64,000 nucleotides of DNA from Blattabacterium sp. DPU (GTDB lineage Bacteria; Bacteroidota; Bacteroidia; Flavobacteriales; Blattabacteriaceae). Of the stretch, positions 8,135 through 32,593 are shown one piece after another. Made by a program: the position numbers and the translations under genes. The first letter of the stretch is position 1, and every line of letters begins with the position of its first letter. The stretch is from positions 1 to 64,000 of the forward strand of contig NZ_CP049785.1 in assembly GCF_011290385.1 (NCBI RefSeq). The letters are read 5' to 3'. Under the pieces are notes generated by a model. The model searched no databases. It saw nothing but the letters and a program-made list of their open reading frames with translations, and was not told where the DNA came from.

Positions 8135-8913
8135 TTATCTGATTTCATCAGGTATTTTACATATAGGAACAGGAATCATCTTATGCCGATTTTTTTGATG
8201 CAAAATTTGATATTTTTGAAAAATTTCATATTCTGTTTCAGAAAAGGTATAATCTTTTTTTTTCATAATTTTCATAGCCCATTCTAATTCTTCATAAGTA
8301 GCTCCTAATTGTTCTTCATCTGATCGATGATCTTCCCAAAGTCCATCCGTTGGTTTCGCTTTTTGTATTTCATCAATTATATTCAATTTTTTAGCTAACA
8401 AACGGACTTCACTTTTAGTCAAATCAGCTATAGGATGTAAATCTACACCTCCATCTCCATATTTTGTAAAAAAACCGACTCCAAAATCTTCTACTTTATT
8501 TCCAGTTCCAACAACAAGATAATTCTTTACATTAGCATAATAATATAAAGTTAACATACGAATACGAGATTTTACATTAGCTAATGCTAAAGATAGTTTT
8601 GAATTTTTAGTATCATTAGTTATATGACAAAAAGTTTTGAATAAAATAGACAAATCTTTTTCAAGATAAAGAACGTTTGAAAATTTTTGGGTCAAAAACT
8701 TTGCATGTTTTATAGGTAAAAAATTTTTTTTTTTTCTAAAATAGGCATTTCCAATAAAATAGTTGGAAATTTTGTCATAGCCACTAAAAAAGATGTTACT
8801 GAAGAATCAATTCCTCCAGATATTCCAATAATAAATCCATTGGATTTAGACTTTTGAATATATCCTTTCAACCAGGATACAATATATCTAATTACTTTTT
8901 CTGTTTTAATCAT
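8135..8913 (-). CDS. nadE: NH3-dependent NAD+ synthetase, frame broken at an A12 run
   Basis: Adenylates nicotinate adenine dinucleotide and amidates it to NAD+. Two frames together make one normal enzyme of about 259 aa without a glutaminase domain. The first frame (ATG at 8911-8913) carries the PP-loop motif ISGGIDSS. It runs into a run of 12 A on the coding strand (8724-8735) and stops at 8710. The second frame carries the rest: VGTGNKVEDFGVGFFTKYGDG, then DLHPIADLTKSEVRLLA, KPTDGLWEDHRSDEEQLG and the C-terminus. It is open from just after the A run, reading NFLPIKHAKFLTQKFSN. One extra A (13) or two fewer restores the frame. Both parts look under selection, so slippage rescue or a sequencing error is as plausible as inactivation. 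Confidence 0.88.
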
Positions 8914-24799: not shown

Positions 24800-25437
24800 T
24801 TATATTAAATTATTATTTAATAATTCTTGATATATTATATCTTTTTTGAAATTCCATTTTTTATATGGAGAATATGCTTTAGCATAAGAAATAATTTGAA
24901 AATGTAATTTTTTCCAATCTTTTTTTTTAAAAAAACGTTTTGCATCTTGTTCAGTTTGTTTTACATTTTTTCCATTACTCAGTTTCCAACGTAACATCAT
25001 TCTGTGAATATGAGTGTCTACAGGAAATACAAATGCATCGGATACATGAGACAAAAAAACAGATGCGGTCTTGTGTCCTACCCCAGGAAGAGATTTTAAT
25101 TCCAAAATATTTTTTGGAATAATTCCATTATACTTGTTTATTAATATAACAGATAAATCATAAATATTTTTAGATTTTCTATTATAAAGTCCTATAGTTT
25201 TTATAATATTTTTTATTTTTTCAATGGAAAGATGAATTGTATCCATGGGTGTATTTATCTTTTTAAATAGAAATTTTGTTATTTCATTTACTTTTTTTTC
25301 TTCACTTCTAGCAGTTAATATTATGGCAATTAATAAAGTATATTCGTTGGTATAATATAAAGTACTAGTTGGATTCGGGTATAAGAAATCCAATGTTTTT
25401 TCAATAATTTTTTTTTTTTTTCTGAAAAATAATTCAT
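24800..25437 (-). CDS. nth: Endonuclease III, frame broken at an A14 run and lacking Fe-S cysteines
   Basis: DNA glycosylase/AP lyase for oxidised pyrimidines. The core is clear: LLIAIILTARSEEKKVN, then IKTIGLYNRKSKNI, then the helix-hairpin-helix LPGVGHKTASVFL with the catalytic Lys and the PVDTHIHRM aspartate. The natural start is ATG 25435-25437, which overlaps the clpC TGA as ATGA, giving MNYFSEKKKK. The frame then breaks at 14 A (25408-25421); one extra A joins it to IEKTLDFLYPNPTS, the expected family N-terminus. Otherwise translation would have to start at TTG 25391-25393 (197 aa). The C-terminus has none of the four [4Fe-4S] cysteines of typical Nth. Function is uncertain. Confidence 0.88.
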
Positions 25438-27542
25438 TTTTTATTATGGATTAACACTTCGACATCGTCTTTATATACATTCATTTTTAGTGAAATTTTG
25501 TCTCCTTTTTTTAATTTTTCACTAATTATGTATTCCGATATAGGATTTTTTATAAATTTTTCTATTACTCTTTTTAAAGGACGAGCTCCATACTCTTGAT
25601 CAAATCCTTTTTTTTGAATAAAATCTATTACTTCCTGAAGTAATACTAATTCATAACCTAAATTGGACACATGAATAATTATTTTTTTCAATTCTATTGA
25701 AGTTATTTTCGATATGTTTTCTTTTGTCAGAGAATTAAAAATAATAACATCATCTATTCTATTTAAAAATTCAGGAGAAAAAGTTCGTTTTAATGCTTGT
25801 TCCAATACATTATTAATATAATTATTAGATTTTCTTGCTCGAGTATGAAATCCTATTCCTTGACCAAATTCTTTTAATTGTTGTGTTCCTGTATTTGAAG
25901 TAAAAATAATTACAGTATTTTTAAAATTTATTTTTCTTCCAATACTATCTGTCACACATCCATAATCTAACATTTGTAACAAAAGATTAAATACTTCATG
26001 ATGTGCTTTTTCTATTTCATCTAATAATATAACAGAATAAGGTCTACGACGTATAATTTCTGTTAATTGACCTCCTTCCTCGTATCCCACATAACCTGGG
26101 GGTGCCCCGATTAATCTTGATACAGAAAATTTTTCCATATATTCACTCATATCTATACGAATTAATGATTCTTCAGAATCAAATAATTCTTTAGCAAAAA
26201 TTTTTGCTAAATAAGTTTTACCTACTCCTGTTTGTCCTAAAAAAATGAAAGAGCCTATAGGAGAATTAGGGTCTTTCAATCCAGTTCTATTTCTTTGAAC
26301 AGCTCTTACTATTTTTTCTACTGCTTCATCTTGTCCTATTATTTTTTCTTTTAATACATCTATCATTTTACTCAATTTTTTCATTTCAGCTTGAGCTATT
26401 TTATTTACTGGAATTCCACTCATCATAGATACTACTTCTTCAACATTTTCTTCGGATACAATTTCTTTATTTTTTTTAGAAGATTCTTCCCACTCTTTTT
26501 GTGCTTTTATTAATTGTTTTTCTATACGTTTTTCTGAATCACGTAATCGTGCTGCTTCTTCATATTTTTGACTCTTAACAACTTTAGATTTCTCTTTTCG
26601 AATACTTTCTAATTCTTTTTCTAAAAGAACTATTTTTTGGGGAACTTTTATGTTTTTAATATGAACGCGAGATCCCGATTCATCTAAAGCATCGATTGCT
26701 TTATCTGGTAAAAATCGATCAATAATATATCGTACAGTAAGATGTACACAAGCTTTTATTGCTTTTTCTGTATAAAGAACATTATGATGACTTTCATATT
26801 TTCCTTTTATATTCTTTAGAATTTCTATGGTTTCTTCCTCAGAAGAAGGTTGTACAATGATTTTTTGAAATCTTCTTTCTAATGCTCCATCTTTTTCTAT
26901 ATATTGTCTATATTCATTTAATGTAGTAGCTCCAATACATTGAATATTTCCTCTGGCTAAAGCTGGTTTAAATATATTAGAAGCATCTAATGAACCTGTA
27001 GTTCCACCAGCTCCAATCATAGTATGAATTTCATCTATAAATAGAATTAATCCTGCATTTTTTTCTGATTCGTTTATAATAGCTTTCATTCTTTCTTCAA
27101 ATTGACCTCTATATTTAGTTCCCGCAACTAAACTTGCTAAATCTAATACAACTACTCTTTTATTGAACAATACTCTAGATACTTTTTTTTGTACAATACG
27201 TAAAGCTAATCCTTCAGCAATAGCAGACTTTCCTACTCCAGGTTCTCCTATTAGAAGAGGATTATTTTTTTTTCTTCTACTCAATATTTGAGATACACGT
27301 TCTACTTCTTGATCTCTACCTACCACTGGATCTAATTTACCCTTCATAGCTATAGAATTCAAATCTCTTCCAAAATTATCCAAAATAGGAGTTTTACTTC
27401 TTATTGAAGATCCTCCATAATAGCCCGAACCTGTTCCTCCAGAACCATAAGAAGTAGAACTATCATTTTCAATATCTTCATCGGAATAAGCAGAAGAGAA
27501 AAATATTTTTTTCCTACTGTTTGACGAATAATGATAAATCAT
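25434..27542 (-). CDS. clpC: ClpC-type AAA+ unfoldase lacking the N-terminal domain
   Basis: Hsp100 unfoldase, 702 aa, partner of ClpP (49770). AAA-1 has Walker A GEPGVGKSAIAEG and LILFIDEIHTM. A short middle domain contains the UVR-like EEAARLRDSEKRIEKQL. AAA-2 has GQTGVGKTYLAK and VILLDEIEKAH, and the IGF tripeptide in GQGIGFH is the expected ClpP-docking loop. Bacteroidota ClpC normally starts with a double Clp_N domain of about 150 residues. Here the protein begins in the glycine/serine linker (SSTSYGSGGTGSGYYGGSS) just before TPILDNFGRDL. The only upstream space is 66 bp to dnaX, so the domain is deleted, not frameshifted. Adaptor and substrate choice are probably altered. Confidence 0.95.
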   Translation of the reverse strand: MIYHYSSNSRKKIFFSSAYSDEDIENDSSTSYGSGGTGSGYYGGSSIRSKTPILDNFGRDLNSIAMKGKLDPVVGRDQEVERVSQILSRRKKNNPLLIGEPGVGKSAIAEGLALRIVQKKVSRVLFNKRVVVLDLASLVAGTKYRGQFEERMKAIINESEKNAGLILFIDEIHTMIGAGGTTGSLDASNIFKPALARGNIQCIGATTLNEYRQYIEKDGALERRFQKIIVQPSSEEETIEILKNIKGKYESHHNVLYTEKAIKACVHLTVRYIIDRFLPDKAIDALDESGSRVHIKNIKVPQKIVLLEKELESIRKEKSKVVKSQKYEEAARLRDSEKRIEKQLIKAQKEWEESSKKNKEIVSEENVEEVVSMMSGIPVNKIAQAEMKKLSKMIDVLKEKIIGQDEAVEKIVRAVQRNRTGLKDPNSPIGSFIFLGQTGVGKTYLAKIFAKELFDSEESLIRIDMSEYMEKFSVSRLIGAPPGYVGYEEGGQLTEIIRRRPYSVILLDEIEKAHHEVFNLLLQMLDYGCVTDSIGRKINFKNTVIIFTSNTGTQQLKEFGQGIGFHTRARKSNNYINNVLEQALKRTFSPEFLNRIDDVIIFNSLTKENISKITSIELKKIIIHVSNLGYELVLLQEVIDFIQKKGFDQEYGARPLKRVIEKFIKNPISEYIISEKLKKGDKISLKMNVYKDDVEVLIHNKK

Positions 27543-27608: not shown

Positions 27609-28002
27609 TTAATTTTTTTTTGTTGAAATTTTATAAGGAGATATTCTTAAATCTAATCGTTCTATTAGTGTTTCTATTAATTTATTTTTTTGATATAAAA
27701 GATTATATTGTTTTATCGTAATTGAATTTTTTTTAATCATTTCAAATTCTATATGTATATTTTCAAACTTTTCTTTTAAATATTTTAAAAAATGTATTTT
27801 AATTGATAAAAAGTTATGGGTTCCTAATTTATATGGAGAAATAAAAAACATTTTATTTTTTTCTATTTGGAATTGTATTTCATTATTTAAAAAATATAAA
27901 TAAGTAGGATTTATTTTTCCATAAAATTTATCAACAAATTTTATCCAATTTTTTTGTAAAAATTCAATTTTTTCATTTTTATCATAATCATAAAATGTTT
28001 TA
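27609..28002 (-). CDS. dnaX: DnaX C-terminal (tau-like) segment in a shifted frame
   Basis: Open frame of about 132 codons that continues dnaX directly after the A11 run but in a different frame. It begins NKTFYDYDKNEKIEFLQKNW, passes through FVDKFYGKINPTYLYFL and LSIKIHFLKYLKEKFENIHI, and ends ERLDLRISPYKISTKKN. This matches the usual C-terminal pattern of Bacteroidota DnaX (a tryptophan-containing helix, a small alpha/beta domain, a final short helix). It has no start of its own; an internal ATG at 27849-27851 would give only 80 aa. It is expressed only if slippage removes one A, adds two A, or a +1 ribosomal shift occurs. Confidence 0.72.
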
Positions 28003-29091
28003 TTTTTTTTTTTCTTCTATGAAAGAAGAATTTTTATGACTATCAAATAAATATGCCAATTGTATTATATAAATTTCAATTATTAATCGATAATTTCGAT
28101 GAAATTTTTCATATTCTTTTTTTAATCGAAGACAAATTCCCAAAGCATTTATTAAAAATAAATAAGATATTTTTTTTGATTGTGCAATGTAAGAGTATAT
28201 TATTTCTTTTTTAAATTTTAAAATAGGAATTGTTTCATAATTTTTATATAAAAATAAATTTCTGAAATGCTTGATTAAGCCTATAATAAAATCACAATGA
28301 TAAATTTTTTCTCGAAAAATTTGATCCAATAAAATAAATATATTATATATTTTTTTATCTAAAAGATAATCTACCATTTTAAAATAGTACTTAATATCAA
28401 CTATTCCTAATTTTTGAATTATAAATTCTTTAGATATCTTTTTTTCACTATATAAAATTAATTTATCAAATAAAGAAATAGCTTTGCTCATAGATCCTTT
28501 TACATGTTTTGATAAAACCAGCAATGCTTCATTTTCTACCTCTATATTTTCTTTTTCAGCGATCATTTTTAAATGTACAAAAATTTCTTTTGTAGAAATA
28601 CTTTTGAATTCATAAACTTGACAATGTAATAGAAGCCATTTAGGAATTTTTTTTTCTTCTGTCCCACAAAAAATAAATAATATATGCGGATGTTTCTCTT
28701 CTATAAACTTTGTAAATACATGTAAAAAATATTGAGAAAACATATGTACATTATTAATAATAAATATATTATATTTTCCCATTTTTGGAAAAAAACGAGA
28801 TTGATTTATAACTTCATAAATATGTTCTAATGAAATATTAAAAAGTCCATTAATTTCAAATCTATTTGAAGAAAAATCTTTAAATTCTGATGAATAATTT
28901 AATTCATTTGCTAAAATCCTAGCACATGTATTTTTTCCAACTCCTTCTGGACCAAAAAAAAATAAAATTTGAGATAAACGATTTTCTTGTATTGCTTTTT
29001 TTAAAATTATAATTATATCTTCTTGTCCTATTATTTCATTCCATTTTAAGGGTTTATATTTTTCAGATAAGACATAAAAAACTTTTTTCAT
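28000..29091 (-). CDS. dnaX: DNA polymerase III gamma/tau subunit, degenerate ATPase motifs
   Basis: Clamp-loader subunit that loads the sliding clamp. The zero frame gives 363 aa: the DnaX start YVLSEKYKPLKWNEIIGQED, Walker A GPEGVGKNTCARILA, then lid and collar domains. It stops at TAA 28000-28002, directly after 11 A (28003-28013). Several active-site elements are lost. The Walker B box reads IINNVHM instead of IIDEVHM, the four zinc cysteines are absent, and the SRC motif with the arginine finger is LHC. HolB (delta prime) was considered, but the KY.P..W.EIIGQ start and TCARILA identify DnaX. Between sucC (9 bp) and clpC. Confidence 0.87.
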   Translation of the reverse strand: MKKVFYVLSEKYKPLKWNEIIGQEDIIIILKKAIQENRLSQILFFFGPEGVGKNTCARILANELNYSSEFKDFSSNRFEINGLFNISLEHIYEVINQSRFFPKMGKYNIFIINNVHMFSQYFLHVFTKFIEEKHPHILFIFCGTEEKKIPKWLLLHCQVYEFKSISTKEIFVHLKMIAEKENIEVENEALLVLSKHVKGSMSKAISLFDKLILYSEKKISKEFIIQKLGIVDIKYYFKMVDYLLDKKIYNIFILLDQIFREKIYHCDFIIGLIKHFRNLFLYKNYETIPILKFKKEIIYSYIAQSKKISYLFLINALGICLRLKKEYEKFHRNYRLIIEIYIIQLAYLFDSHKNSSFIEEKKK

Positions 29092-32277: not shown

Positions 32278-32495
32278 AAAATTTTTATTTTTTCTTTTTT
32301 ATGAGGAATTTTAATTTTTCCAATTTTTCCAAAAATAGGTTCGATTGAATAAACATATCTTATTTCAGATTGAATAATATTAGGATAAAGATTTAAATAA
32401 TCGGAAGATATGAAAGGAGAAATGATAAGTATTTTATTATTGTTTTTCGCGACTTATTCTAAATTAGGAACGAAAAAAAGTACCTATAATGACAT
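32274..32495 (-). pseudogene. Remnant of an unidentified protein gene in the sucB downstream spacer
   Basis: The 342-bp spacer 32278-32619 has no intact gene. On the minus strand a 59-codon frame (32274-32453) encodes protein-like sequence (ILIISPFISSDYLNLYPNII ... SIEPIFGKIGKIKIPHKK) ending in TAA. Upstream the same frame continues FVPNLE but is cut by TAA at 32454-32456 and TAG at 32484-32486, with a possible original ATG at 32493-32495. The composition (Pro, Gly, Asp, Tyr, varied codons) is unlike random A+T-rich spacer, so I read it as an eroded gene end. The family is not recognised. The rest of the spacer holds the sucB terminator and otherwise nothing I can identify. Confidence 0.45.
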
Positions 32496-32593
32496 GTATT
32501 TTTGAAAAAAAATATAAATGTATAAAGTTAATAATTTTTCTTTTTTAACTATACCCCTTTATTTTTTGCTACTCACGATAAAATAATAAAAAA

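Follow-up and report, generated by a model that had tools for sequence, protein, structure and literature searches.

The dnaX gene has become a recurrent example of how a homopolymer run can change the reading frame of a bacterial gene. In Thermus thermophilus, an A9 run follows the part of dnaX that encodes the AAA+ domains; the zero frame encodes tau, the ATPase is active, and slippage yields the short and long products at a 1:1 ratio, as established by experiment (PMC1088944). A two-ORF type of dnaX, in which a gamma-sized zero frame is followed by a tail in the -1 frame behind a polyA run, was described by Antonov et al. in 2013, with nine cases at A10 (GeneTack; PMC3711429). Among endosymbionts, dnaX carries a polyA frameshift in both Blochmannia vafer and B. 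floridanus, where correction by slippage was proposed and other genes are split too (PMC3017870). Measurements in Buchnera and Blochmannia indicate that slippage can restore the frame in 12-50% of transcripts (PMC5009743).

The dnaX gene of Blattabacterium sp. DPU resembles each of these systems in part. As in Thermus, an A run follows the AAA+ part, and slippage there would give a short and a long protein; a run of at least nine A, a frame change and two encoded products can all be read from the sequence. Unlike Thermus, the run is A11, the zero frame is the short form and the ATPase is broken. The gamma-sized zero frame and the tail in another frame behind polyA recall the two-ORF type, but the tail is in the +1 frame at A11, and DnaX is catalytically broken. 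In Blochmannia the shift falls within the part encoding tau only, 3' of an E. coli-type site, and is common to two species; in Blattabacterium it falls in the linker that joins head to tail and appears to have arisen separately. With the slippage-rescued genes of Buchnera and Blochmannia (PMC5009743; PMC3017870), it shares a long A run, a frameshift and a conserved downstream frame; transcripts were measured in those systems, and the Blattabacterium gene was analyzed here as sequence.

The split dnaX locus

The window analyzed here is a stretch of 64,000 nucleotides from the 623,008-base genome of Blattabacterium sp. DPU (G000). dnaX lies between sucC and clpC and has the same neighbours in relatives (Table 1). 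The original prediction placed a split dnaX at 27609-29091, and these coordinates stand, with the minus strand as a small correction. Its 363-aa zero frame, ending at a TAA straight after the A11 run, is confirmed by the sequence. The conserved C-terminus in the +1 frame and a joined protein of about 493 aa also hold, although the tail comprises 130-131 codons after the run and not the 132 first counted. Beyond the run, 130 codons are open in the +1 frame and 19 in the -1 frame. A joined product of 493 aa would result if one A were skipped, and the gene is predicted to encode a short and a long protein.

Table 1. Features of the split dnaX gene and of other homopolymer-associated splits, some of them probable or candidate, in the source genome
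Feature	Position	Strand	Description
dnaX zero frame	28000..29091	(-)	363 aa from ATG 29091; AAA+ clamp-loader domains I-III, gamma-like; TAA 28000-28002
A11 run (dnaX sense)	28003..28013	(-)	T11 on + strand; TAA directly 3'
+1 frame, tau-like C-terminal domain	27609..28013	(-)	130 codons past run; stop 27609-27611
Peptide of +1-frame tail			NLLYQKNKLIETLIER
Walker A GPEGVGKNT	28927..28953	(-)	residues 47-55; GKT to GKN; coordinates counted from translation
Walker B IFIINNVHMFS	28735..28767	(-)	residues 109-119; DE to NN
SRC arginine-finger position	28621..28629	(-)	residues 155-157, LHC
nadE	8135-8913	(-)	split at A12 (8724-8735) into 67 + 186 aa; both halves one family
tsaC/sua5	about 527.2 kb		split at A11; both halves PF01300
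prmC-like methyltransferase	about 394.9 kb		probable split at A12; second half only matches
dCMP deaminase gene	about 572.3 kb		probable split at A11; second half only matches
Candidate broken gene (L051)	141.8-144.6 kb, near 143.3 kb		behind ribF; ORFs of 153 + 506 aa meet at A10-A11 runs; no Pfam match

Both sequence and fold identify the head as domains I-III of DnaX. Its best NCBIfam match is PRK14971 (1e-82), Pfam also assigns it to DnaX, and it matches TIGR02397 at 9e-68 with 229 bits, slightly below the cut-off of 250 for that family. An AlphaFold2 model (pLDDT 83.5) aligns in Foldseek with E. coli gamma chains at TM scores up to 0.83 (8vam_D). A match to TIGR01128 raised delta (HolA) as another identity, which was rejected on the NCBIfam and alignment evidence for DnaX. 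The tail has no match in Pfam or NCBIfam. It aligns with tau tails of other Bacteroidota over 108 columns (hhalign probability 96.1%, E 3e-9) and shares 74% identity with the tail of the relative G018, which is in frame. The tail model (27612-27995) is of moderate confidence (pLDDT 69) and has no PDB match with E < 0.001; the modelled fold weakly resembles DciA and DnaA domain I, a similarity that is not significant and may serve as a lead only.

Distribution of the split in Blattabacterium

Across 49 Blattabacterium species, 46 of them with a readable DnaX N-terminus, dnaX is split in four: at A11 in G000, G022 and G052, and at T10 in G053. The gene was searched for and not found in G019 and G021. 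It is read through in one frame in the remaining 43 species, of which G020 retains only a head fragment and three have a tail match too weak to place. A published table also lists dnaX as absent from Sulcia and Uzinura (PMC3971599), which indicates that loss of dnaX is tolerated in the group.

Within the clade around G000, an in-frame A10 run is present in G018, G044, G047 and G049, an in-frame A11 run in G015 and G061, and an in-frame A16 run in G062. The A11 splits occupy three separate branches of the tree, in which G022 stands next to the in-frame G018 with 100% support and the deep branches of the clade around G000 are weakly supported. The simplest reading of these sequences is that A10 became A11 by three independent insertions. 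The linker between domain III and the tail is hypervariable within the genus. Many species have a linker without an A run of at least eight, and the run conservation of Thermus-type slippage is not found in the genus. In G063 (L107) and G060 (L108), tandem repeats of about 10 codons have lengthened the linker.

An older A-run site in the Flavobacteriales

Outside Blattabacterium, 113 informative Flavobacteriales were counted by hand. The zero frame is about 361-407 aa long in 47 of them and long in the other 66. At the DNA level, nearly all of 38 distinct loci carry A9-A12, mostly A10, immediately behind domain III, and one carries A7. Ten of these loci have the tail in frame 0, 25 in frame -1 and two in frame +1, and one locus is cut by a contig end. 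Frames other than that of the tail mostly stop within a dozen codons. Conservation of the run but not of the frame is a mark of transcriptional slippage.

The original prediction regarded an analogous switch in dnaX as independently arisen and new for this group. Novelty is contradicted by the A9-A12 site of free-living Flavobacteriales and by the two-ORF type, already in print (PMC3711429). Because the order-wide site is older, independent origin of a switch is not the most economical interpretation. The sequences are most simply explained if the older site has mostly eroded in Blattabacterium and a new A run has formed in one clade.

Selection on the tail

The tails of the three A11-split genes are free of stops for 130-156 codons and contain no second indel. 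Under neutral simulation, a tail would remain stop-free with a chance of 0.004 at a distance of 0.2 (the whole terminal branch) and of 0.5 at 0.02, so that a recent origin of A11 is also possible. Judged from these sequences, the open tail frame is more than chance. Estimates of tail dN/dS at the tips are 0.09-0.35 in G022, 0.42-0.64 in G000 and about 1-2.5, with wide intervals, in G052. Amino acid change in the tail, taken relative to that in the head, is elevated at the three split tips, which rank 2, 3 and 5 of 24 (p 0.005). The sequences therefore suggest a tail that has been retained, yet shows signs of weaker constraint in the split species. Like slippage-rescued endosymbiont genes, the locus combines a homopolymer indel with a selected downstream frame, here with partial relaxation of the tail.

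Loss of ATPase residues and search for clamp-loader partners

DnaX of the source genome lacks residues of a working ATPase: Walker A reads GKN, Walker B reads NN and the sensor-2 residue is S. Across the genus the site is broken as well. All 46 heads from Blattabacterium retain the P-loop Lys, but the Thr/Ser next to it is replaced by N in 41 and by H in one; the Walker B Asp is lost in 45 and the Glu kept in seven; the sensor-2 Arg is lost in 46 of 46. No head has both Walker A and Walker B intact. Six free-living relatives keep all these residues, as does the related symbiont G064 (L257; 345 kb), a member of the same family that presents the reverse of Blattabacterium, with intact ATPase motifs and no tau tail.

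The partner subunits were also sought. Profile searches with PF13177 for delta' returned DnaX alone above the cut-off, and a second, active DnaX or a delta' elsewhere in the genome was rejected on this result. PF06144, used for delta, gave nothing above the cut-off in 41 genomes, and the strong matches to TIGR01128 are DnaX itself; a very diverged delta could escape these searches. A beta clamp was identified in 41 of the 49 Blattabacterium species. These sequences suggest that Blattabacterium DnaX is probably a non-hydrolysing structural protein, and a genus-wide loss of its ATPase was not reported in the literature searched. With the motor residues and the delta partners missing, it is probably meaningless here to distinguish gamma from tau as clamp-loading forms.

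Other homopolymer splits in the genome

Among 98 scored A/T runs of at least 10 in the source genome, 77 lie inside intact frames. Eight were marked as candidate splits, a count to be read as a lower bound because the scoring rule is coarse and took nadE as intact. nadE has longer frames in most relatives and apparently shorter ones in four other species. The frame of prmC, 162 aa in G000, reaches about 300 aa in most relatives. Similar splits at A10-A12 in nadE and tsaC, and probably in prmC and the dCMP deaminase gene, mean that dnaX does not stand alone. Across six genomes, the region that corresponds by synteny to the window holds one other polyA split, in nadE of G000. Splits of dnaX in other species occur at 3/46, vs about 1/320 for other genes of the same region (p 0.007), a background drawn from that one region; the excess could mean that there is something special about dnaX, although the apparently shorter nadE frames in four other species weaken the contrast. 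Two further features were observed in the window: a gene relic at 32283-32544 on the minus strand, which corresponds to a gene of 375-379 aa in G018 and G022, and a T14 run at 25408-25421, between genes at 24800-25393 and 25434-27542.

Origin of the split and alternative explanations

The account that fits these observations best, and that is probably though by no means certainly correct, is that the dnaX split is a homopolymer indel that the symbiont tolerates because transcriptional slippage corrects it in part; the affected DnaX would be a pseudo-ATPase, and there would be no dedicated switch. A one-base insertion would have turned an in-frame A10 into A11 within the low-complexity, Lys/Glu-rich linker that joins domain III to the tau C-terminal domain. 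By analogy with other endosymbionts, slippage at A11 would then produce a mixture of A10, A11 and A12 transcripts. A11 transcripts would presumably form the majority and yield the 363-aa gamma-like protein, and a polymerase slipping to A10 (or A13) would allow a minority of the 493-aa tau-like protein, perhaps in an amount that makes the indel tolerable. As originally predicted, slippage within the run is still the most plausible route to the long form, with two predicted products and a conserved tail.

The original prediction went further, to a possible gamma/tau switch analogous to that of Thermus. In a working switch, the ratio of short to long DnaX would be controlled through slippage at A11. 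In favour of it are the A9-A12 runs found across the order behind domain III, where the tail occupies frame 0, -1 or +1 and nearly every other frame soon stops, and the recurrence of A11 in three separate lineages that need the same correction and have open tails. However, the run is absent or in frame in most Blattabacterium, where dnaX mostly has one open frame, and the split reflects separate changes from A10 to A11. Unrelated genes of G000 are split alike, no species of the genus has an intact ATPase site, the profile searches returned neither delta nor delta', and the tail evolves faster in split species. On the sequences compared, it is unlikely that gamma and tau are switched here in their clamp-loading roles. 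Against a tolerated indel, the ancestral slippage site of the order, which lies at a similar place, leaves room for a function that was kept or regained.

It is also improbable that the gene is an early pseudogene, with the tail no longer made and the 363-aa DnaX on its way to being lost. Such decay would agree with the missing dnaX of G019 and G021, the fragment in G020, the raised tail dN of G000 and G052 and the tailless DnaX of G064. It does not account for the 130 codons that each of the three A11 species keeps free of stops and of further indels, nor for the low tail dN/dS of G022. A sequencing or assembly error that hides a true A10 is more improbable still: long homopolymers are error-prone and related species have A10, but most of the long runs scored in this assembly lie within intact frames, and A11 is out of frame in two other assemblies as well. 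Ribosomal frameshifting as the source of the long form is very improbable. A-rich sequence can shift ribosomes, as at the E. coli A_AAA_AAG (PMC3711429), but the tail is reached by loss of one A and would require +1 or -2, so that the known -1 shift enters the wrong frame and meets a stop after 19 codons; an E. coli-type site with slippery heptamer and 3' stem-loop was rejected for the same frame and because a search 3' of A11 saw no stimulatory RNA structure (z 0.0).

Implications for symbiont and free-living Flavobacteriales

Read as a tolerated indel, dnaX of Blattabacterium would join the endosymbiont genes that persist through slippage. Two wider results carry more weight. One is the order-wide A-run site in dnaX of free-living Flavobacteriales, behind which the tail may lie in any of three frames. 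The other is a symbiont genus in which the sole AAA+ subunit identified for the clamp loader has lost its catalytic residues. A tentative proposal, for now more a possibility than an expectation, is that the genus replicates with a non-hydrolysing clamp loader: DnaX would be a conserved pseudo-ATPase scaffold, with delta and delta' gone, beta mostly kept and the tau tail dialled down by A-run indels. Whether such a loader suffices to replicate a chromosome, and what role tau has once the motor work of gamma is gone, can now be tested.
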